Positions 8,049 through 20,307 of a stretch of 26,573 bases of DNA are shown one piece after another. The notes below the pieces were generated by a model that saw only the letters and a program-made list of their open reading frames with translations, had not been told where the DNA came from and searched no databases. Each line of letters starts with the position of its first letter. Position 1 is the first letter of the stretch. Origin of the DNA: a virus; IMG/VR virus record IMGVR_UViG_3300025132_000237, positions 1 to 26,573 of that record. One strand, written 5' to 3'. A program made the translations under genes and the position numbers.

Positions 8049-9719
8049 ATGGCATTACTAGACGGACAAACACAAAGCTCTTATTATCAAGGCAGCGAAT
8101 ATGGTCAATATCAATTTGTATCTCTACAAGATGTTATTGATCAATTTATGGTTATATATGTTGGTGAAGAAAAAGTTATTAATAAAGCTAGTAGAACAGA
8201 CGTTGCGTTTCACGCGCAAAGAGCTTTAGCTGAATTATCATTTGATACACTTAGATCTTTTAAAAGCCAAAGTATTGTTTTACCGCCAAGTCTTGTAATG
8301 ACTTTGCCGCACGATTATGTTAACTATACTAGAGTAATGTGGTGCGACGATGCTGGTATTAAAAGGCCGCTTTACGCAACAAGAGATACTCAAAATCCTT
8401 TTCAAATAAAACAAACTGCAACTGGCGCTTATGACTTTGGTGCTAATAATCCTGTAATATTTAATGGTGGCACGCTTTCTGATTATGCTGGCGCAGCAGA
8501 AGTCACTTTTAGAGAGTCGTGGCAAACTAGTAATAATAGTTTTTATGGTAACCCTAACAATGTTGGTTTTCCAGTTACTGGTCTAAGATCTTGGGCTTTC
8601 AACGTGGACAATGGTCTTGATGGTGGTACTGCTGGTATTTTTACTGAAATAGCAAATACAGCAAGTCCAGATAATCCAGGCGAAACTTTAACTTTGCAGT
8701 TTCGAGTCCATCAAAAAAATAATCTTGGTAGCACTGTAGGTGGTGCTCCAGCTATTTGGCAAAAAGTATCTAACAATACAGGCTATATAAAAGTAACAGC
8801 GGCAGCTGAAACTCAAGCTGCGGGATCGATAACTATTGCGCCGCCAGTCGTGAATAATGTAGGACAAACATACGCTACGCCTAATACTACTGTTAGAATA
8901 GGTTTAACTACTAGAGTGCCTGATTCAAACCCTGACTTAATTAATAATCCTACCTCGGCAAACACTATAGCACAAACTTACAATGCTGAAGAAGATTTAT
9001 TTGATATATTCAATACTAGTGGTGAAGCAAAGTTTTTAGAGTGGACTGGTGGTGAAGCTGCAAATGAAAAAGAAATAGCTTACGATCTTTCTTCTTATGG
9101 AGATACGCCAGTATACTTGGTGGCTGTAGGTATTGTTCCTTGGGCTTCGTTTGAGTCTAGTAGTCATAGTCAGCAATTAGTGCTAGCGCCTAAGGTAATA
9201 TCAATAGACGCTATAAATGGTTTTCCTGCAACAGACTTAGAGCCAGAAACGGGCTATTATAAAAGCTCAATAATGTGGGAAAAGTACAAAGCTATAACAC
9301 CTGCAGAAAACAATAACGACGACTATGCTAATGATGATTATCAAAGAGTTCCTGACGAAAGATATGGTCTTGATCCTAGCAAAGCACAAACAAACGGTTC
9401 GTTTTATGTAGATGATTTATATGGCAGAATACATTTTAGCTCTAATGTTTCTGGAAAAACTGTGATATTAGATTACATAAGCGATAGTCTTGGAACTGAA
9501 GATGAGATGCAGGTCCATAAGCTAGCAGAAGACGCTATATACAAATGGATAACGTACGGCGTATTATCTTCTAAGATAAATATACCAGAGTATATAGTTC
9601 AAAGAGCTAGAAGAGAAAAAATAGCTGCTACAAGAAAAGCTAAACTTAGATTATCAAATGTTAAATTAGAAGACATTGCTCAAACACTTAGAGGAAAGTC
9701 TAAACAAATAAAGCATTAA
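8049..9719 (+). CDS. Ring/tail-tubular-like neck protein with a beta-rich insertion
   Basis: The 556-residue protein has a conserved helical N-terminus (about 1-75, including DVAFHAQRALAELSFDTL), then LPHDYVNYTRV at 86-96, the counterpart of LPNDFYRF in the preceding protein. A conserved C-terminal part (about 437-556) holds RYGLDPSKAQTNGSFYVDD, a beta hairpin with GKTVILDYISDSLG, and a basic helical tail. These N- and C-terminal parts fit portal-binding tail-tubular/ring proteins. Between them, about residues 130-395 are Gly/Asn/Thr-rich with a jelly-roll-like pattern (SWAFNVDNG, AIWQKVSNNTGYIKV, YDLSSYGDTPVYLVAVGI), like a carbohydrate-binding module inserted in the core. The gene follows its neighbour by 4 nt and precedes the muzzle gene by 3 nt, so the three are probably translated together. 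Fold assignments are inferred from pattern. Confidence 0.7.
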   Translation: MALLDGQTQSSYYQGSEYGQYQFVSLQDVIDQFMVIYVGEEKVINKASRTDVAFHAQRALAELSFDTLRSFKSQSIVLPPSLVMTLPHDYVNYTRVMWCDDAGIKRPLYATRDTQNPFQIKQTATGAYDFGANNPVIFNGGTLSDYAGAAEVTFRESWQTSNNSFYGNPNNVGFPVTGLRSWAFNVDNGLDGGTAGIFTEIANTASPDNPGETLTLQFRVHQKNNLGSTVGGAPAIWQKVSNNTGYIKVTAAAETQAAGSITIAPPVVNNVGQTYATPNTTVRIGLTTRVPDSNPDLINNPTSANTIAQTYNAEEDLFDIFNTSGEAKFLEWTGGEAANEKEIAYDLSSYGDTPVYLVAVGIVPWASFESSSHSQQLVLAPKVISIDAINGFPATDLEPETGYYKSSIMWEKYKAITPAENNNDDYANDDYQRVPDERYGLDPSKAQTNGSFYVDDLYGRIHFSSNVSGKTVILDYISDSLGTEDEMQVHKLAEDAIYKWITYGVLSSKINIPEYIVQRARREKIAATRKAKLRLSNVKLEDIAQTLRGKSKQIKH

Positions 9720-9722
9720 TTT

Positions 9723-12700
9723 ATGGCAGAGTTAAAGAATAACTTTCTTCAAGGTAAAATGAATCAAGACCTTGATGAAAGAATTTTACCTAAAGGACAG
9801 TATAGAACCGCGATGAACATACAAGTTTCTTCATCTGACGAAGATAGTGTAGGTACTGCTGAAAATATTCTTCCTAATCAATCTTTCTCTAATATTGCTT
9901 CAGTTCACCCTACCTGTAGATGCGTTGGTAGTATAGCTGATCCTTTAACAAATAGTATATATTGGTTTGTTCGTTGTCAAGATAGAGATGCTATAGTTAG
10001 ATATTCTCAAGACTCTGACACTTCTGAAATAATAGTTGCAGATTTAGGTAGAGCTAGAGCTAACTATGTCGGTGAGTTTAGATCAGCACCTCCTGTTCCT
10101 TTTTTAAACTTTACTGGCGAACAAATTACAGCTATTAGTATAGTAGATAATTATTTGTTTTTTACTGATGGTAATAGTGAGCCAAAAAGAATAGATTTAT
10201 CTAAAGATTACACTAATTATGGGCTTGGAGAAAACGGTGTTAATTTAGGTACAAATCAATCATTTAGACATCATTCAGTATTTAGGGCTAACGGACAAGA
10301 GCATGGGTTTTTGCAAGAACGACATATTACCGTTATAAAAGAAAAACCAACTAAAGCTCCTTTAGTAAGATTTACTAGTTCAGTTAATAATCCTGAAAAA
10401 AGTATATTTGAAAAACAAATACCTAGATTTTGCATTAGATATAGATACGACGACAATCAAGTTTCAGCGTTTGGTCCTTTTTCACAACCTGTATTTAACG
10501 CAGCTTTTCTTGAAGAGCAAGATTATAATGTGAACTTTTATAGTGACACTGAATATTATAACACTGCAATGTTAAATTACATAAGCTCTATAGAGCTGTA
10601 TAACTTTGTGTTACAAGATACGCCTGAAGATGTTGCTGAAATAGAATTATTGTATAAAAATGAAGATTCAACTGTAGTATACTCAATAGCAAAAATAACA
10701 AGAGACCAAGAAGAGTGGTCGCAACTTGGTAGTCTTTACACGCAGCTACAAATAGAGCAACCAGAAACTGTTGGTATTAGAGCAGATATTGCTACTGGAT
10801 CTTACACTATAAACAGCGAAAATATAACGGCAGCAATAGCTGAAGATCAATTGCTCAGAGTTTATGATAATGTTCCAAGAAAAGCTAGAGCTCAAGAAAT
10901 AGTTGGTAATAGAGTTGTTTATGGAAATTATACTCAGAACTATGATTTAGATCAAGCTGTAATACTCGACGCAAATTACGAGCACAACTATTACGATCCA
11001 ACATTAGTTAATTATAGCAACAGATTCTTTAATCAGCCGTACAGAACTATAAAGTCTCAACGAAAATATCAAATTGGATTATTATTTGGAGACATGTATG
11101 GTAGAGAGACTCCAATATTTACTTCTAAGCAAGGCTCTGTAAATGTGGACTGGTTTTACAATGGTCAAGAAAACGATCAATTATTTGATGATAAAAATGC
11201 TACTTTATCTAATAGACTGTTAGCTAGCGTAGATCCGCAAACTATACCTTCTTGGGCTAGTTATTATAAGTTTTACGTTAAAGAAACTTCAGGTAATTAC
11301 TTTAACTTATTAAACGATAGAATATATATACCTTATAGACACAGTGAGTTTGAAAACAAAGAAAATCATATATATTTAGCTTTTGCTTCAAAAGATAGAT
11401 CTAAAGTTTCTGAAGAGGATTATATCATATTAAAAACTATACTAAAAAGTCCAGCTCCTTATCAAGTTGGTCAAGATAACAAATACAAAATAATAGACAT
11501 TAGCAATGAAGCTCCAGAAGCAATTGCTTATAAGTTTTACGATCTTGGGTCAGTTGTAAATAACGAAAACTCTTTAACTGAAACTGGCGGTTTATTTACT
11601 CAAGGCGGTATAGGTGATACTAGTCAACGAATAGACAGAGAAACAGATACTATAATAATTAGCAAAGCTTTTTGGCAAGCCTTAGAGCAAGATGGTTCTG
11701 CCTTAACAAATTCAGAAGGCGGAGCAATTGAGTCTAGCAATAAAGTTGAAAACTTATACATGTCTTGGATTGTGGGTGATTTTCAGTCTGTAAAATACAA
11801 GATAGCTAACATAAGAATATCAGGTGATAATTATGTTATTAAATTATCAAGTAGAATTAGTCAAGCAGACGCGACTATAGCTAGCGTAGGCGGCGTTGAT
11901 TCTGAAGGTGAAATGGTAATATCAGATAACATAGCTGATGGATTAATATTTAAAATACAAAGAAAAGATAGATTTTCTAACGAAAATTTTTCAGGTAGTT
12001 TCTTTGTAAAAATTGCCGCTGATGATTTAATTAATAACGAGCTTGTAAACTTAGGATCTAATGTTAGTATTCTTGATTCTATATCAGGGCAAACAAATAT
12101 ATACGCTTGGCTTGATCAGGCTAGTAGTCAGCACTCTTTAACACAAATATCGAATGCTGAAAATGCAGCTGATATTAATAGTGTTTATGGTGGAAGCGCT
12201 ACAACTCCCGAAGACATTCACGGTGGAGACGGCATAACTAATACAGCTGCAGAGTGGGAAGTTATGTTAGCATCAAACACTGGTTTTGGTTCTGGTGATG
12301 GCAAATTTTTTATTGATGGTATGTATATGGCTGCCACTGCTAGTCCTTATAACAACGTAAATCATTATGCTTCTGACTCTGCTCAAGGATGGATAGGCTT
12401 TGACGCAATAAAATATCCTAGGCCAATGTGGAAAAAAGTTACTGATTATAGTTATACAAGCTCGTACAACTATGAAGGTGGGCAATCAACTCAGATGAAA
12501 CACAGGCGTCTTAGAGACAAAAAGCAATATGCTTGGGTTTTTGGCGGGAGTTATACCGCTCCAACTGGAGAGTTTGTAGAAACTGAAACGTTTTTCGGCA
12601 TGGGTGGTAATCTTACTGAGTCAGGACCAATATTACAGGCTAGAAGAGGTCATATTACAACGTCTGCAGGTAGTTTTAACACAAGCGCTTTAGAAAACGC

Positions 12701-15700
12701 AGGCTATACAGACGGTGATTACACTAATTCATATGTAAACGGTGTTGACCCTATAATTGAAGCTGGATCAGATCATACTGGCGAGCCTTCGGAAGGTCAA
12801 GGCTATAAAAGGTGGGTCAATAGTAAATATAGTTTTCCAAGAAATCCAGATGATACATATGAAGAAGGTGGGTTTTATATGCACTTATCTTTCTTAGGTC
12901 CTGGTGTTGATTTATTTACTGAGGCAGCTGAATATCCTACTAAAATAAATTTGATAGGACCTGACTCTTTAGGAAAACACTTGCAAGGAATATTTGGTGG
13001 CGGAGCGTTTACAAAACAAGATGGTAGTGTATTTAATAGTAACAGCTTAGAAAACGTTATAGAGCTGCAAGGGGCATACTTTAACGACAGCTACGACTCT
13101 GGCTATGTTGGTGGTTGGGGTGTACGAAGAGAGCCTGTGGCTTGGAGTGCTTATCCTGCACCTCAAAACATGAGCTCTGCACCAGGCGAAGTTCAGTTAA
13201 TAGGTTTTAATTCTAGTTATACAGAAGCTAATAATAAGCAGTTTGATCCAACGTATGGAGCTGAAAATCCAATAGGTGTTCAAGATATTTTAGATAAAAT
13301 TCAAGTTAATGGTAGGTTTAGATTTTCTGAAGATAGTGATAATGAAGTATACACTATACTAGGCGTTGAAAAAAAGCATGTGTATAATCACACACCTTGG
13401 AGGAAAAGAATGGAGTGGGATGGTGATAATTGGGTAGCTGGAGGTGATAGCGTTGAAGAAGCAATTATCGCTTGGGCTGACGCTCATTGCGTGGCAGATC
13501 ACACTACAGAAAATCTTGGTAACGCAGTTATAAATAGAGACTATGTTTCTACACAACCAAACGTTGGAACAGGCTATAATGATGAGTTTCAAGATGTTTT
13601 AGATAAACTGACTGCTTTTGGCTCTAGATCTAACAGAAGAGTTGTTTATGTGCTTAAGTTAGACAAAGATCCTAGAGGATCAAGCTTTAATCCTATAGCT
13701 CAAGCTAGTACTGGCTCAATAGAAGTTGATAATAACGCTAGTTTTATAGAGTTTATTGAGCCTGCTTCAAAATCTTATACTAGTGAGGTAACTACAAATA
13801 AAGCTATATTTGAGACTGAGCCTCAAGACTCTGCTGATATAGATATTTATTACGAAGCTAGTGACGCTATACCAGTTAGCTTAGGTTCAGATTTAATTCA
13901 CAATTATTTACCCGTAGGCTCTAAAGTTGAAATCATAGACTTTGATGATGCTTTAAATGACTCTGGAGATAAAGTTTTAAGGACTGTTTTTCCAATTTTC
14001 AATCAAGAAACCAACGTATTTGAAGCTCAAATACAAGTACGTGGATTTAATGAACAAGTTATAGGTTTTAATGAAAACAGTGCGAGTACTGGTGAAGCAT
14101 TAGACTATACTGGCGTTAGGCTAAGAGTCGTAAAACCAGATGGGTCTTACAGTGATTTTACAATAAGTAGTACACTAGGTGCTGTTAATAATTTTATATC
14201 TACTTTTAATATAGTATTAGATCACTCTTTGTTTCAAGGACTAAATTTTTATAACGCATTTAGCTTTGGAAGTGGTGTTGAGTCTGATACTGTAAGAGAT
14301 GATTTTAACGGTAACAGAATTACAACTGGCGCTAGAGCTTCTACTACTTTAGACGAGCCTTACGCTGAAGAAACAAGAGAAAATGGTTTAATATTTTCTG
14401 GCATATATAATTCTAACGGTAGAATTAACAATTTAAATCAGTTTATACAAGCTCAAAAGATAACTAAAGACTTAAACCCAACGTACGGTAGTATACAAAA
14501 GCTTTTTCAAAGACAAACAGATTTAGTTGTATTTTGCGAAGACAGGGTAGTTAAAGTTTTAGCCAACAAAGACGCTATATTCAACGCTGACGGTAATCCT
14601 CAGCTTGTTGCTAACGAAAATGTTCTTGGTCAAGTTAGACCGTTTGTTGGTGATTATGGTATAGCGACTAATCCTGAATCTTTCGCGTCTGAATCTTACA
14701 GAGCTTACTTTACAGACAGGCAAAAGCAAAAAGTATTAAGATTATCTATGGACGGTCTTACGCCAATATCTGACGCTGGTATGAAAGACTGGTTTAGAGA
14801 TAACTTACAATTTACAAACATACTGTGTTTAGGCACTTATGATGAGAATAAAAAAGAATATAATTTAACTCTAAGAAACGCAATAAACGCAAACGTTATT
14901 CAAAATGCTTTCTTTGAAGAAGCTTTGCCTTTAATAGAAACTTTTACTGGAGAAGAACTAGTACAAAATCCTAATTTTAATGGAGGCGAAGATTTTACTA
15001 CAGTTGATTTTGTTGGTGATATTTTTGAAACAGAGCAAGATCTTATAGGAGGCTTTAACTCTGATCTTGACACTACTGTTACAGTAAATTATTGGCCAGA
15101 ACTAACTATAGGAAGTATTTTTGAAGGAGTTGACATACCACCGCAAGAAGGTCAAGACAGTGTCTTTGCATTTAACACAGGCTCTTGGACAAACGGATGG
15201 TCGAATAATTATTTTGATGGACCAGATCCCAGCCTGTTAACAAACCAATTTGGCGGCACGATGAACTTTACTGGTATTAATCAAAATCCTTTTGTATCTA
15301 ACAATGACAATGGGCCGGGTACAGGCGGCTATACTTCTGCAATGTTTCCTCGATGTACTGCTTATGGAACTGGTATAACCGCTAGTACTATTGATCTTAC
15401 GCAAGCTTATCACTTTACTTATGAAGATGAAACTAGCGCCAACGGGGTATCTTCGGCGCCTTTTAATATAGGCTCACCAGAACATCCCGTGCAGCATGTA
15501 GGATTAGTATTTAGCATACCAAGTGGGGAAGTAACCGCCAATAATGTTGCTACATATATTCTTCCATATACAAGACTGTCTTATAGCAGTTGGTCGCGCG
15601 GTTTGCCTTACAGTGTTGGTAATTGGATTAATAATCCCGCGAATATAAATGACGTAGACTATAGCTCGGCAGATAATATGACCATGTTTAATGGTGAAGA

Positions 15701-18689
15701 AATTAAAATTACGTTTAAAGTTAAAGCTGATTACCAAGGAAACGTTCCTTGCCGTTTTAGATTACAATTAATCGATGGCAACGCAGGCAATGTAATTCCT
15801 AATGAGTATGTTCAAGTACAAGCTGTTGAGGAAGGAACTAATGGCACGGATGCCGCTGATGCTTTGCCTTATGGATCTATTAGATCAATTCAACATTACG
15901 GCGGCGAAGAGTTAAACTATGGAAGTGATTCTTTTGATTTTACCAGTTCTGCCGTTGGCGATAGAAAAGGTTTTCAAACTAGCACAACGATTGATTTTGA
16001 AAAAATTGGAGCCGGAGAAAACTTAGATTTTGATGATTTAGGTGATGATGGTTGGTTTACGTTTTCTGCTTGGTTTAAATTTCAAAACGGTTACGAAGAA
16101 AGTATTGTTGTTAATGATTTAAAAGCAAGGCTTTACTACATGCACAATAGTGATGGTATTGAGTCGACTTCATCAACTGAATATTCTCAAGTTGTTATAG
16201 ATTATTTTATTATTAAAAAGTATTATAGACTTGAAGAGCCGCAAATTACTCAAGTTGGAGCAGAAATTAATATTCCACCAGTGCCAGAAGAAAATATACC
16301 GGCTTGGACAGAAGTTATATACAATGGTTTTGACGATTGGAATACTAACACTTGGCAAGGTAATGTAGTAGCGTCAAATGCAGCCGGCGTTAATTTTGGC
16401 CCACAAGTTTTAGGTGGTGTTCAATCAGTAATATTGCCAAATGGCACAACGTATTCTTACAATGCTCCAACAAGTAGTGGAAATCAATTTACGCCAGATC
16501 CATTAAATCCTCCTATAGGAAACGCAGTTATTTCGACTACACATCCACAAACAGGATTACCTTATACTACTGTAACTTACGATCTGCAAGGTAGCAACTC
16601 TGGAGTATTGTTTAGTCCTACGCCAGGTTCGCCTGCTAGTATAACTCAATTTCTAGATGATGCAGAATACGATAGAACAATAAAAAAAGGTAATTGGTAT
16701 TTAGTTGAAGCAGTAGTTGATCCTACAAATCCAATAAACTCGTGGTATTACGATGCTAATCCAGCTTTAATGCTTAGAACTCAAGCTATAGTTGGCGATG
16801 TTGACACTAACATGGCTCAAATTAATCAAGCTTTAGGTATTAGTCATGAGGATATTAATAATCCTAACTTTGAAAATTATCCTTTATATCATTTTGGGCA
16901 AATATGGCTTCAATCATTTGGTGCAGACTCCAACGCTCCTAAAAGAATGGAGCTCATGCCTACAACAAGAAGCTGGTATGGCGAAGAAGTTCCAATACTG
17001 ATGGCTATATTTCAAGCGGGTGAAGATTCTAATGAGTTTACTCTGCAGTGCGTAAAAGCTACAGCTGCAAGCGACGAGCAGTTATTGCTAGATAGTATAA
17101 AAATATATGATATTACACAGACAGCGTCAATGTTAGAGCCAACCTCCTGGGATATACAGCCTGCCGGTTATCAACAACCTCATGCTCTTCCTCAGTTAGT
17201 ATCTGAATTTTTTCCGGACGCAAACGCGGAAGTGTATTACAAAGGCGGACAAGTAAATTGGAATTCTACTGGAGATGGTTCGTTTTATTATTTAACTCAA
17301 GGCTCTAGTGATAATGCTATAAATGAATTTGAAGTTAGTCAAGCTGGCTACGTAATGACTTTTGAAATAACAAGTCACATTGATTTTCCAGGCGAAGATC
17401 CACAAGGTCGATTAATAGCGCAAGTTAGAAACTTTGTAGGTGATCAAAACTTTGGTTTTATTGCAATTATTGATAATCCAGTAGTTGGAATATATACTAT
17501 TGAGTTCAACTACGATGGATCTACTCCAACTGTAATTTCTCAGCCAGAAGGCTCAGAAGTAACAATTAATAATCCACCGACTACTACTAGCTCTGCTTTT
17601 GGTTTCGTAGCCTCTCCTTCACAAGGTTTTTTTGGTGGACTTAAGAATATATCAGTTTATGATCAAACAACTTTATTCAGTGGTGGAGCTTTAGGTAGTT
17701 GGAGCTTTTTAGAAGGCGTACAGTGGAATGAAAGTGAAGAAAATATACAATTTACAGACGCTGAAGGAATAAACAATACTTTAGGAATTATTGCCGCTAT
17801 GCAGAACATAGGTGAACTAGCAACTGACAGCGCTTATGGTTTGGAATTTACTGTTGTAAATCCATTTAATATTCCTTTAAATTACTATTATTTTAATCCT
17901 CAAGGTCAAGGGTTTTTTGGTACAGTAAGCGCTAGCACAGACGTTAACGTGCAGCACGTTGTTGGCGAACAATCTTTATTGCCAGATTATCAAGGATCTT
18001 TAGTTAATGCTTTAGTATTTTATATAGACGACAACGAAGAGCTACTAGAAATAACTACACAAAATCAAGATGGTGAAGATCAAACAGAAATTGTAGAAGC
18101 TTTTTTAACTATAGATAATGTATACTTAAATCAATTACCTGCAATTGGATTTAATCCTTCAACTATTTCGTACAGCGAAGATGTAAAAGGTTGGGTTAGC
18201 TTTAAGTCATTTATACCAGAAAGCGGTTTGAGCTTAGGGTCTAACTATTACACTTTTAATTTAGCAGGTCTTTATAGGCATCATATTGAAACTATAGCTG
18301 GCTATAATCAATTTTATGGTAGGCCTAGAGTTAACTCTGAAATAACGTTCATATTTAACGATGCTACTTCTATTTCAAAAGAATTTCAAACTGTTGCTTA
18401 CGAAGGTAGTAGAGCAAGAAGACAAAGGTTTTCTACTAGAGACGGGCTAACAGAAACAATAACACCTGATAATTTGTTTTTAAGCGCTAACGGTGGATTT
18501 TCGCCAGGCTGGTTTGTTTCAAATATTCAAACTGATTTACAAAGAGGATCAATACCAAATTTTATTAAAAAAGAAGGTAAATACCACAACTATATAACTG
18601 GAGCCAACGTTGACTTTAGGAATTCAGACGATATTGGCAGACTAAACGTGCAAGGACTAGGATTTGCTACGACAGTAGTTGTAACTTAA
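9723..18689 (+). CDS. Giant muzzle/nozzle-type tail protein ('stabilization protein' family)
   Basis: At 2,988 residues this is the largest complete gene here. The N-terminus carries the family signature LQGKMNQDLDERILPKGQY followed by an NIQVSSSDED stretch. This resembles the opening of beta-propeller nozzle proteins (T7 gp12, P22 gp10) and of the crAss-like muzzle/'stabilization' protein. Family blocks recur later: AIFETEPQDSADIDIYYEAS near 1361-1380, propeller-like blades ending in KKEYNLTL near 1716, and GWVSFKSFIPESGLSLGSNY with YEGSRARR near 2820-2905. Normally, as I recall, the last two blocks are close together; here about 1,100 residues separate them. No signal peptide or long hydrophobic segment is seen. 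The product should form the exit of the short tail, closing the DNA channel and possibly touching the receptor. It sits 3 nt after the ring protein and 15 nt before the next gene. The family call is fairly secure; the exact structural role is inferred. Confidence 0.8.
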   Translation: MAELKNNFLQGKMNQDLDERILPKGQYRTAMNIQVSSSDEDSVGTAENILPNQSFSNIASVHPTCRCVGSIADPLTNSIYWFVRCQDRDAIVRYSQDSDTSEIIVADLGRARANYVGEFRSAPPVPFLNFTGEQITAISIVDNYLFFTDGNSEPKRIDLSKDYTNYGLGENGVNLGTNQSFRHHSVFRANGQEHGFLQERHITVIKEKPTKAPLVRFTSSVNNPEKSIFEKQIPRFCIRYRYDDNQVSAFGPFSQPVFNAAFLEEQDYNVNFYSDTEYYNTAMLNYISSIELYNFVLQDTPEDVAEIELLYKNEDSTVVYSIAKITRDQEEWSQLGSLYTQLQIEQPETVGIRADIATGSYTINSENITAAIAEDQLLRVYDNVPRKARAQEIVGNRVVYGNYTQNYDLDQAVILDANYEHNYYDPTLVNYSNRFFNQPYRTIKSQRKYQIGLLFGDMYGRETPIFTSKQGSVNVDWFYNGQENDQLFDDKNATLSNRLLASVDPQTIPSWASYYKFYVKETSGNYFNLLNDRIYIPYRHSEFENKENHIYLAFASKDRSKVSEEDYIILKTILKSPAPYQVGQDNKYKIIDISNEAPEAIAYKFYDLGSVVNNENSLTETGGLFTQGGIGDTSQRIDRETDTIIISKAFWQALEQDGSALTNSEGGAIESSNKVENLYMSWIVGDFQSVKYKIANIRISGDNYVIKLSSRISQADATIASVGGVDSEGEMVISDNIADGLIFKIQRKDRFSNENFSGSFFVKIAADDLINNELVNLGSNVSILDSISGQTNIYAWLDQASSQHSLTQISNAENAADINSVYGGSATTPEDIHGGDGITNTAAEWEVMLASNTGFGSGDGKFFIDGMYMAATASPYNNVNHYASDSAQGWIGFDAIKYPRPMWKKVTDYSYTSSYNYEGGQSTQMKHRRLRDKKQYAWVFGGSYTAPTGEFVETETFFGMGGNLTESGPILQARRGHITTSAGSFNTSALENAGYTDGDYTNSYVNGVDPIIEAGSDHTGEPSEGQGYKRWVNSKYSFPRNPDDTYEEGGFYMHLSFLGPGVDLFTEAAEYPTKINLIGPDSLGKHLQGIFGGGAFTKQDGSVFNSNSLENVIELQGAYFNDSYDSGYVGGWGVRREPVAWSAYPAPQNMSSAPGEVQLIGFNSSYTEANNKQFDPTYGAENPIGVQDILDKIQVNGRFRFSEDSDNEVYTILGVEKKHVYNHTPWRKRMEWDGDNWVAGGDSVEEAIIAWADAHCVADHTTENLGNAVINRDYVSTQPNVGTGYNDEFQDVLDKLTAFGSRSNRRVVYVLKLDKDPRGSSFNPIAQASTGSIEVDNNASFIEFIEPASKSYTSEVTTNKAIFETEPQDSADIDIYYEASDAIPVSLGSDLIHNYLPVGSKVEIIDFDDALNDSGDKVLRTVFPIFNQETNVFEAQIQVRGFNEQVIGFNENSASTGEALDYTGVRLRVVKPDGSYSDFTISSTLGAVNNFISTFNIVLDHSLFQGLNFYNAFSFGSGVESDTVRDDFNGNRITTGARASTTLDEPYAEETRENGLIFSGIYNSNGRINNLNQFIQAQKITKDLNPTYGSIQKLFQRQTDLVVFCEDRVVKVLANKDAIFNADGNPQLVANENVLGQVRPFVGDYGIATNPESFASESYRAYFTDRQKQKVLRLSMDGLTPISDAGMKDWFRDNLQFTNILCLGTYDENKKEYNLTLRNAINANVIQNAFFEEALPLIETFTGEELVQNPNFNGGEDFTTVDFVGDIFETEQDLIGGFNSDLDTTVTVNYWPELTIGSIFEGVDIPPQEGQDSVFAFNTGSWTNGWSNNYFDGPDPSLLTNQFGGTMNFTGINQNPFVSNNDNGPGTGGYTSAMFPRCTAYGTGITASTIDLTQAYHFTYEDETSANGVSSAPFNIGSPEHPVQHVGLVFSIPSGEVTANNVATYILPYTRLSYSSWSRGLPYSVGNWINNPANINDVDYSSADNMTMFNGEEIKITFKVKADYQGNVPCRFRLQLIDGNAGNVIPNEYVQVQAVEEGTNGTDAADALPYGSIRSIQHYGGEELNYGSDSFDFTSSAVGDRKGFQTSTTIDFEKIGAGENLDFDDLGDDGWFTFSAWFKFQNGYEESIVVNDLKARLYYMHNSDGIESTSSTEYSQVVIDYFIIKKYYRLEEPQITQVGAEINIPPVPEENIPAWTEVIYNGFDDWNTNTWQGNVVASNAAGVNFGPQVLGGVQSVILPNGTTYSYNAPTSSGNQFTPDPLNPPIGNAVISTTHPQTGLPYTTVTYDLQGSNSGVLFSPTPGSPASITQFLDDAEYDRTIKKGNWYLVEAVVDPTNPINSWYYDANPALMLRTQAIVGDVDTNMAQINQALGISHEDINNPNFENYPLYHFGQIWLQSFGADSNAPKRMELMPTTRSWYGEEVPILMAIFQAGEDSNEFTLQCVKATAASDEQLLLDSIKIYDITQTASMLEPTSWDIQPAGYQQPHALPQLVSEFFPDANAEVYYKGGQVNWNSTGDGSFYYLTQGSSDNAINEFEVSQAGYVMTFEITSHIDFPGEDPQGRLIAQVRNFVGDQNFGFIAIIDNPVVGIYTIEFNYDGSTPTVISQPEGSEVTINNPPTTTSSAFGFVASPSQGFFGGLKNISVYDQTTLFSGGALGSWSFLEGVQWNESEENIQFTDAEGINNTLGIIAAMQNIGELATDSAYGLEFTVVNPFNIPLNYYYFNPQGQGFFGTVSASTDVNVQHVVGEQSLLPDYQGSLVNALVFYIDDNEELLEITTQNQDGEDQTEIVEAFLTIDNVYLNQLPAIGFNPSTISYSEDVKGWVSFKSFIPESGLSLGSNYYTFNLAGLYRHHIETIAGYNQFYGRPRVNSEITFIFNDATSISKEFQTVAYEGSRARRQRFSTRDGLTETITPDNLFLSANGGFSPGWFVSNIQTDLQRGSIPNFIKKEGKYHNYITGANVDFRNSDDIGRLNVQGLGFATTVVVT
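14871..18161 (+). other. Inserted multi-domain block inside the muzzle protein (residues about 1717-2813)
   Basis: This block lies between two conserved parts of the muzzle protein. It looks like several carbohydrate-binding-type jelly rolls in a row, with recurring openings such as ELVQNPNFNGG (about 1745), WTEVIYNGFDDWNTNTWQGN (about 2195), GGQVNWNSTGDGSFYYL (about 2508) and GGALGSWSFLEGVQWN (about 2655). Each is followed by beta-rich, aromatic- and Asn-rich sequence. Isoleucine codon choice also changes: ATA is 8 of 28 Ile codons in 15100-16320 against roughly 21 of 30 at the start of the gene (hand counts). The boundaries are approximate and the domain type is inferred from pattern only. 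Confidence 0.55.
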
Positions 18690-19950: not shown

Positions 19951-20307
19951 ATGGCAGTAACAATAACCGTACCTATGGAAAATGTATCTCTTCAAGTTGG
20001 AGACACAGCCTTTTTTGTACCTATCAACGAAGACTTTTTAAACAGCGGCGTTGGTGTTGCTGGATTTGATGGAGCGACACCTCCTGCGACAATAGGTGTT
20101 ATAACACAAATAAACGCTAACTCTATAGTTGTGCAAGAAGAAATAAACGTTCCTGGTGAAGGTGATTTTATTTTATTTGTAAAAAATGCTAACGTCAATG
20201 CCTCAGGAATAAAAGGTACGTTTGCAGAAGTAACGATGGAGTTAGATACTCCTCTTAGAGGCGAGTTGTTCTCTGTAGGTGTAGAAGTAAAAGAAAGTAG
20301 TAAATAA
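19951..20307 (+). CDS. Small beta-rich virion protein
   Basis: This 118-residue protein opens with MAVTITVPMENVSLQVGDTA and ends with a GELFSVGVEVKESSK stretch. It is almost entirely predicted beta strand, without Cys, signal peptide or membrane segment. I recognise the pattern (opening ITVPxENVSLQxGD, an FILFVKNxxVNxSG middle and an AEVTMxL...LFSVxxEVxESSK end) as a small protein that regularly follows the muzzle gene in marine phages. Its function is not known to me. Position suggests a tail accessory or surface protein acting with its 411-residue neighbour 10 nt upstream. The ATG follows an AAATTTAAAC leader without Shine-Dalgarno. A 40-nt A/T-rich gap with no clear signal separates it from the next gene. 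Confidence 0.8.
   Translation: MAVTITVPMENVSLQVGDTAFFVPINEDFLNSGVGVAGFDGATPPATIGVITQINANSIVVQEEINVPGEGDFILFVKNANVNASGIKGTFAEVTMELDTPLRGELFSVGVEVKESSK

Follow-up and report, generated by a model that had tools for sequence, protein, structure and literature searches.

The muzzle protein encoded in this stretch of DNA carries about 1,100 residues between two blocks of its propeller, and the question is what this segment is, whether it truly belongs there, and what it might do at the tip of the phage tail. The window (the whole stretch of 26,573 nucleotides, a record that is itself a 26.6-kb fragment) contains the structural operon of a marine crass-like phage, in the order terminase, portal, scaffold, MCP, ring, ring, muzzle. 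It opens with the end of the terminase. A 273-residue protein lies between the MCP and the two ring-like proteins, and the 2988-residue ORF is followed on its 3' side by proteins of 411, 118, 271 and 688 residues and then by a large cargo-like protein, of which the window contains the start. PHROG matches supply the names of the tail and capsid proteins, and gene order the remaining ones.

The 2988-residue ORF matches PHROG 14478, a large virion protein family, as far as residue 1721 (E 4e-111), and a second family, PHROG 18548, from residue 2812. The Pfam domain crAss_MUZ_C is matched over residues 2861–2957 (26.6 bits, E 8e-06), which is slightly under the curated cutoff of 27; it is matched by all 32 relatives in alignment A2, with a best E of 3.5e-18. 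The ORF lies directly 3' of a tail ring gene, as gp44 follows gp43 in crAss001. By sequence homology and gene position, it is a homologue of the crassvirus muzzle. The parts referred to below are as follows.

9723–18689, + strand: muzzle (tail-exit) protein ORF, 2988 residues
14163–14870, + strand: propeller block N, residues 1481–1716, found in all homologues, with the last strand EYNLTL before the hairpin turn
14871–18161, + strand: insertion in the propeller hairpin, residues 1717–2813
18162–18686, + strand: propeller block C, residues 2814–2988, containing crAss_MUZ_C (PHROG 18548, PF25729)

Relatives of the muzzle region are found in marine flavobacterial phages and in marine Bacteroidota MAGs. 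One of them (L185) is on the 169-kb scaffold of a cultured flavobacterium (Aquimarina algiphila M91 scaffold2, 80031–101155); this is possibly a provirus or a co-assembled phage, and could name a host.

A preliminary description of this DNA had proposed that the block ending in KKEYNLTL and the block starting with TISYSEDVKGWVSF are almost adjacent in other members of the family and are split here. This is borne out, with the boundaries as proposed: the last residue of KKEYNLTL is 1716 (1717 by another way of counting), TISYSEDVKGWVSF starts at 2814, and the segment between them is 1,097 residues long. Homologues were collected from IMG/VR, and profiles of both flanking blocks were run over all ORFs. 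The spacing in the 127 distinct homologues that have both blocks is bimodal, at 25 residues or fewer in 81, with few intermediate values, above 300 in 35 and above 500 in 34, the window among the last; three of the queries were insert-bearing, and these frequencies are therefore biased and are not population estimates. Compact junctions typically read EYNITL, then 1 to 20 residues, then TVSFREDVKGWVSF, and in cultured relatives the blocks are 14 (elemoA), about 6 (phi38:1) and about 5 (Gundel_1) residues apart. The block is absent from homologues of ordinary length, and the spacing is far beyond chance. The window's muzzle comes from one metagenomic contig, and a chimeric assembly or a mis-joined reading frame might be suspected; the chance of this is negligible, because a second contig (L002) encodes the same architecture and is 84% identical from one end to the other, and inserts at the same position occur in 31 further contigs of the same clade. 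These independent contigs refute the artefact.

The compact propeller, used as a profile against PDB, did not retrieve the crAss001 muzzle chain; gp44 was taken from the crAss001 genome and aligned directly. The A2 profile of compact homologues aligns to gp44 residues 1127–1278 with E 1.9e-12, and the junction falls on the two-residue turn in VYFTYK-DH-CLCYSE, near residue 1199. In this alignment the insertion interrupts the β-propeller at a tight hairpin, strand-turn-strand. This site lies past the IG2/crass region of gp44 (318–1021), where variation in muzzle length has been reported, in the IG2 and crass domains (Bayfield et al. 2023, PMC10172136). The strand pattern suggests that the turn joins strands B and C of one blade. 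The B–C turns of a propeller share a face with the loops between blades, and one such loop bears IG1 below the propeller, which makes it plausible that the insert projects distally.

The same hairpin is where the gene itself is broken in three lineages, namely Baltivirus (phi13:2 and the cultured Cellulophaga phage phi18:3), L047 (on the same contig as L143) and L128, in all of which block C is encoded by a gene of its own. The split points are:

16846–16852: muzzle split in phi18:3 (L170)
16849–16855: muzzle split in phi13:2 (L171)
16556–16583: muzzle split in L047
14314–14327: muzzle split in L128

The first gene of phi18:3 and phi13:2 stops after about 500 residues at a TAA; a new ATG then opens the second one, at block C. 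The 500 or so residues before the break in phi18:3 contain a Big_9/cadherin-like domain of the Ig type, unrelated to the insert in the window, and both products of the split muzzle are annotated from virion MS/MS. It is worth adding that two other loci (L078, 16368–16976; L079, 16261–16905) have inserts of about 200 residues in the loop that leads into the GSYDD strand, at a distance of one hairpin from the main site.

In a quick maximum-likelihood tree of the core, in which many forks along the backbone are weakly supported, 33 of the 34 long-insert proteins fall in a single clade of 37; its four members without an insert are L004, L081, L097 and L132. The inserts within the clade are collinear homologues. 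Those of L003 and L005 are shortened to about 577 residues, with the N-terminal half largely gone save for the first few dozen residues. L004 is 77% identical to L003 in the body of the protein and 88% in the C-terminal block. Its junction reads ...TIKAGYTEDEAVVNEDFEAKTLSYSE, in which the opening GYTE and the closing V-V-x-E-D-F of L003's insert are both retained, as the scars GYTE...VVNEDF, and its gene order and the sizes of neighbouring genes are the same as in L003, L005 and the window. Because remnants of both insert ends persist, L004 is better read as a deletion derivative than as an ancestral empty site, and the junction points to an in-frame deletion.

The insert can be divided into four segments.

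14877–16229, + strand: D1, residues approximately 1719–2169, which includes the variable tip; poorly modelled (pLDDT mostly <60), with the lowest conservation and occupancy
16305–17111, + strand: D2, residues approximately 2195–2463, β-rich in the AlphaFold secondary structure, of moderate confidence, opening with EVIYNGFDDW and closing with LLLDSIKIYD
17232–17663, + strand: D3, predicted jelly-roll module, residues 2504–2647
17718–18134, + strand: D4, predicted jelly-roll module, residues 2666–2804, closing with TIDNVYL shortly before the propeller resumes

AlphaFold, run on the whole insert with 31 relatives, gives an all-β model with a mean pLDDT of 61.5 that is confident in the last third only, and in which no continuous propeller runs across residues 1717–2813. 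Modelled alone, the last two modules (2504–2804) form two confident jelly rolls, with a mean pLDDT of 82.9. A Foldseek search with this D3–D4 fragment finds tandem CBM22 and CBM16 (probability 1.00, TM by target 0.48–0.60, with CBM16 at 0.60), with modest E-values, and other tandem jelly-roll proteins as well; a search with the whole insert agrees. Little weight attaches to the BFVD matches, whose TM is very low and which are tail proteins and capsids of a generic kind. D310 and N311 of the fragment are near-invariant in alignment A3. At the level of sequence, no Pfam CBM family is matched above cutoff across 32 inserts, the matches being at chance level; the insert matches nothing in PDB, Pfam or phage records, and a search of viral contigs with the insert alone has the contig of L002 as its one match. 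The preliminary description had spoken of β-rich, carbohydrate-binding-like modules with repeated jelly-roll-like openings, and had proposed modelling the insert in pieces. Its β-rich character and jelly rolls are supported by the models, confidently for D3–D4 and with low confidence for D1 and much of D2; BLAST detects no internal repeat, and the repeated openings are degenerate motifs. The predicted fold of D3 and D4 is of the CBM type, and the wording that the models support is that these two are jelly rolls of carbohydrate-binding type, with no Pfam match to go with it.

The variability of the insert is best seen in two close relatives, L085 and L092. Their muzzles are 95% identical over residues 1–1556 and 93% over block C, and the insert outside the tip (641 residues) is 86% identical. 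Residues 1691–2090 of L085, approximately 400 residues of the insert, are essentially unrelated to those of L092 (36% identity over 89 of the 400). The tip of L085 is also replaced relative to L087; the tip of L092 is common to L087 and, more distantly, to L116, while that of L085 has no match at the other loci of the set except at its edge. In the other pairs validly compared, with L003/L005 left out, the insert is likewise the least conserved part of the muzzle. From its sequence, the replacement of these 400 residues looks like the swap of a receptor module. The MCP of L085 (4281–5720) is only 64% identical to that of L092, against 94–95% for the portal and the muzzle body. Since the MCP and two further genes diverge above average in this pair, exchange or recombination is not confined to the tip, although the divergence of the tip far exceeds the rest. 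What is clear is that the insertion is real, lineage-specific and exchangeable, and that its position, one hairpin in a core protein of the tail, is fixed.

Our proposal, which on balance we consider probable, is that the muzzle propeller bears, at a hairpin in one of its blades, a grafted and exchangeable arm for adhesion, and that the block is this arm. The site is precise and tolerant, as shown by the 81 of 127 homologues with adjacent blocks, the three lineages that break the gene there and the unrelated insert of phi18:3. The insert can be lost without damage, judging from the scars and unchanged neighbours of L004 and from the four clade members that lack it. The tip varies in the manner of a receptor-binding module, as seen between L085 and L092, and the D3–D4 model resembles CBM22 and CBM16. 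Contact with the cell surface has been proposed for the crass domain of crAss001 (PMC10172136). The proposal is weakened by the missing Pfam CBM match in 32 inserts and the missing PDB sequence match, by the low confidence of D1 and much of D2 and the modest Foldseek E-values, and by the existence of L004, L081, L097 and L132, which manage with no insert at all. Jelly rolls are also found in many proteins that bind nothing, and the divergence of the MCP in L085 and L092 weakens it further.

The insert might instead be mainly structural, a collar or extension of the tail tip whose role would be to stabilise the hexamer or to keep the gate at a distance from the membrane, its divergence then reflecting relaxed constraint. 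The conservation and collinearity of D3 and D4 throughout the clade would fit this, as would the nozzle of SU10, whose domains are structural and rearrange (PMC9509320). We regard it as unlikely: the insert is cleanly lost in L004 and absent in others, and one module is replaced wholesale between otherwise near-identical phages, which is not simple drift. That same replacement fits specific recognition better than it fits a weak, non-specific stickiness, in which the modules would bind mucilage, algal polysaccharide or exopolymer and hold the phage near its hosts with no specific receptor. Such stickiness would be consistent with the CBM-like jelly rolls, with the marine flavobacterial phages and Bacteroidota MAGs in which the relatives occur, and with the proposal that the BACON arrays of gut crAss phages bind the Bacteroides surface (PMC6949934); we nevertheless think it very improbable.

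It had also been suggested that the muzzle would be the main receptor-binding protein, and that this would account for the missing tail fibre gene. The large tail-tip modules, their CBM-type fold and the swapped tip all fit a receptor-binding role, and the neighbouring structural genes in the window, when tested, gave no match to a fibre-like family. The window is, however, merely a 26.6-kb fragment, which ends short of the region where the fibre genes of relatives would be reached. Two insert-bearing relatives with longer contigs, L112 and L005, were read outside the operon, and both have fibre-like genes elsewhere in the genome. The record of L112 has, side by side, a 446-residue tail fibre with an S74 chaperone (L195, 8304–9641), a protein with a LamG lectin domain (L195, 7397–8317) and a 932-residue protein of virion type; that of L005 ends in a 623-residue fibre-like ORF (L194, 13628–15496). 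With these, and with four clade members lacking the insert, it is improbable that the insert is the main or only receptor-binding protein in place of a tail fibre. Module replacement between near-identical phages does fit a receptor-binding role for the muzzle; neither the word 'main' nor the explanation of a missing fibre gene is supported. At the tail tip the insert more likely adds a contact than provides the sole one, and it is most likely an adhesion arm that works beside ordinary fibres.

By analogy with crAss001, six muzzle subunits would assemble into a hexamer at the tip of the tail, in which case six arms of tandem jelly rolls would ring the exit. D3 and D4, which are conserved and next to the propeller, could form a stalk, and the nested N-terminal part would be the variable tip, contacting a glycan or protein of the host surface. 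Together with the separate tail fibres, the arm would probably provide a secondary, docking-stage contact with a receptor, beside the gate.

Muzzles with no insert often have long C-terminal tails (for example L045, 15563–18529, and L039, 13305–17180). Tandem Cys-rich repeats of the form GCTDxxAxNYxPxAxxDDGSC are present in 24 of the 36 muzzles with tails of more than 300 residues and in none of the 34 insert-bearers. An insert and a large tail occur together in none of these 34 (Fisher p 4e-7, ignoring phylogeny), and lineage accounts for part of this exclusion. No BLAST match links inserts to tails that would indicate a common origin. That a tail compensates for loss of the insert was considered and rejected, as the clade members without an insert have gained no tail. 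It is possible, at slightly less than even odds, that the hairpin is a general docking port, which carries jelly-roll arms in the marine lineages and Ig or cadherin modules in others, and in several is cut into two genes, so that the exit protein is made from two polypeptides; the C-terminal GCTD arrays found elsewhere would then make two alternative plans for adhesive decoration.

Two further features lie on either side of the muzzle gene.

8451–9251, + strand: second insertion, approximately 267 residues in the upstream tail ring protein (residues 135–401 of 556)
19951–20307, + strand: neighbouring gene, 118 residues, with homology to the latter half of the family of separate C-block genes in Baltivirus

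The ring proteins of L081 and elemoA align with residues 1–134 and 402–555 of the window's ring, the middle being absent; compact rings of 286–302 residues are found in elemoA, L081, L012 and others. The 118-residue protein matches PHROG 18548 at positions 141–234 (E 3.5e-05). The first half of this family is the muzzle C block; the two halves form one gene (gp115) in Baltivirus and are separate genes in the window.

Little is known of how crass-like phages, abundant as they are, recognise their hosts, and comparison of their spike genes is difficult. The hairpin offers a fixed, alignable address in a core gene, where modules of adhesion type come, go and are swapped, and the prediction follows that alleles of the tip should go with particular host strains. 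If the adhesion arm is real, contact with the receptor would be physically tied to the gate retaining cargo and DNA. The natural two-gene muzzles provide a route to study assembly of the exit complex.

A search of the open-licence literature found no description of this site, of an insert of this size, of its repeated absence, or of module swapping or gene breaks there. Within that literature, variation in muzzle length is already known, and the hairpin site, the size, the losses, the swaps and the gene breaks are apparently new. The predicted D3 and D4 share their fold, with no match at sequence level, with CBM families 16 and 22 (3oea, 2zey, 4xup). The BACON tandem-repeat tail proteins of gut crAss-like phages (PMC6949934) are also modular, tail-linked repeats of a β-sandwich carbohydrate-binding type with a proposed role in host binding, but they are separate ORFs near the tail genes and belong to a different domain family, whereas the modules in the window are inserted within the muzzle. 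The nozzle protein gp17 of SU10 (PMC9509320) is, by its description, similar in being a seven-bladed propeller at the tail exit that is decorated via its propeller loops; there a blade-edge dock loop at blade 1 holds a separate short tail fibre, while in the window the modules are fused into the chain. The closest comparison is with gp44 of crAss001 (PMC10172136), which shares the homologous C-terminal propeller region, crAss_MUZ_C and the position after the tail ring gene. Length variation by insertion has been reported in the gp44 family for the crass and IG2 domains; in the window, about 1,100 residues of β-rich modules occupy a later hairpin of the propeller, where crAss001 has a turn of two residues.
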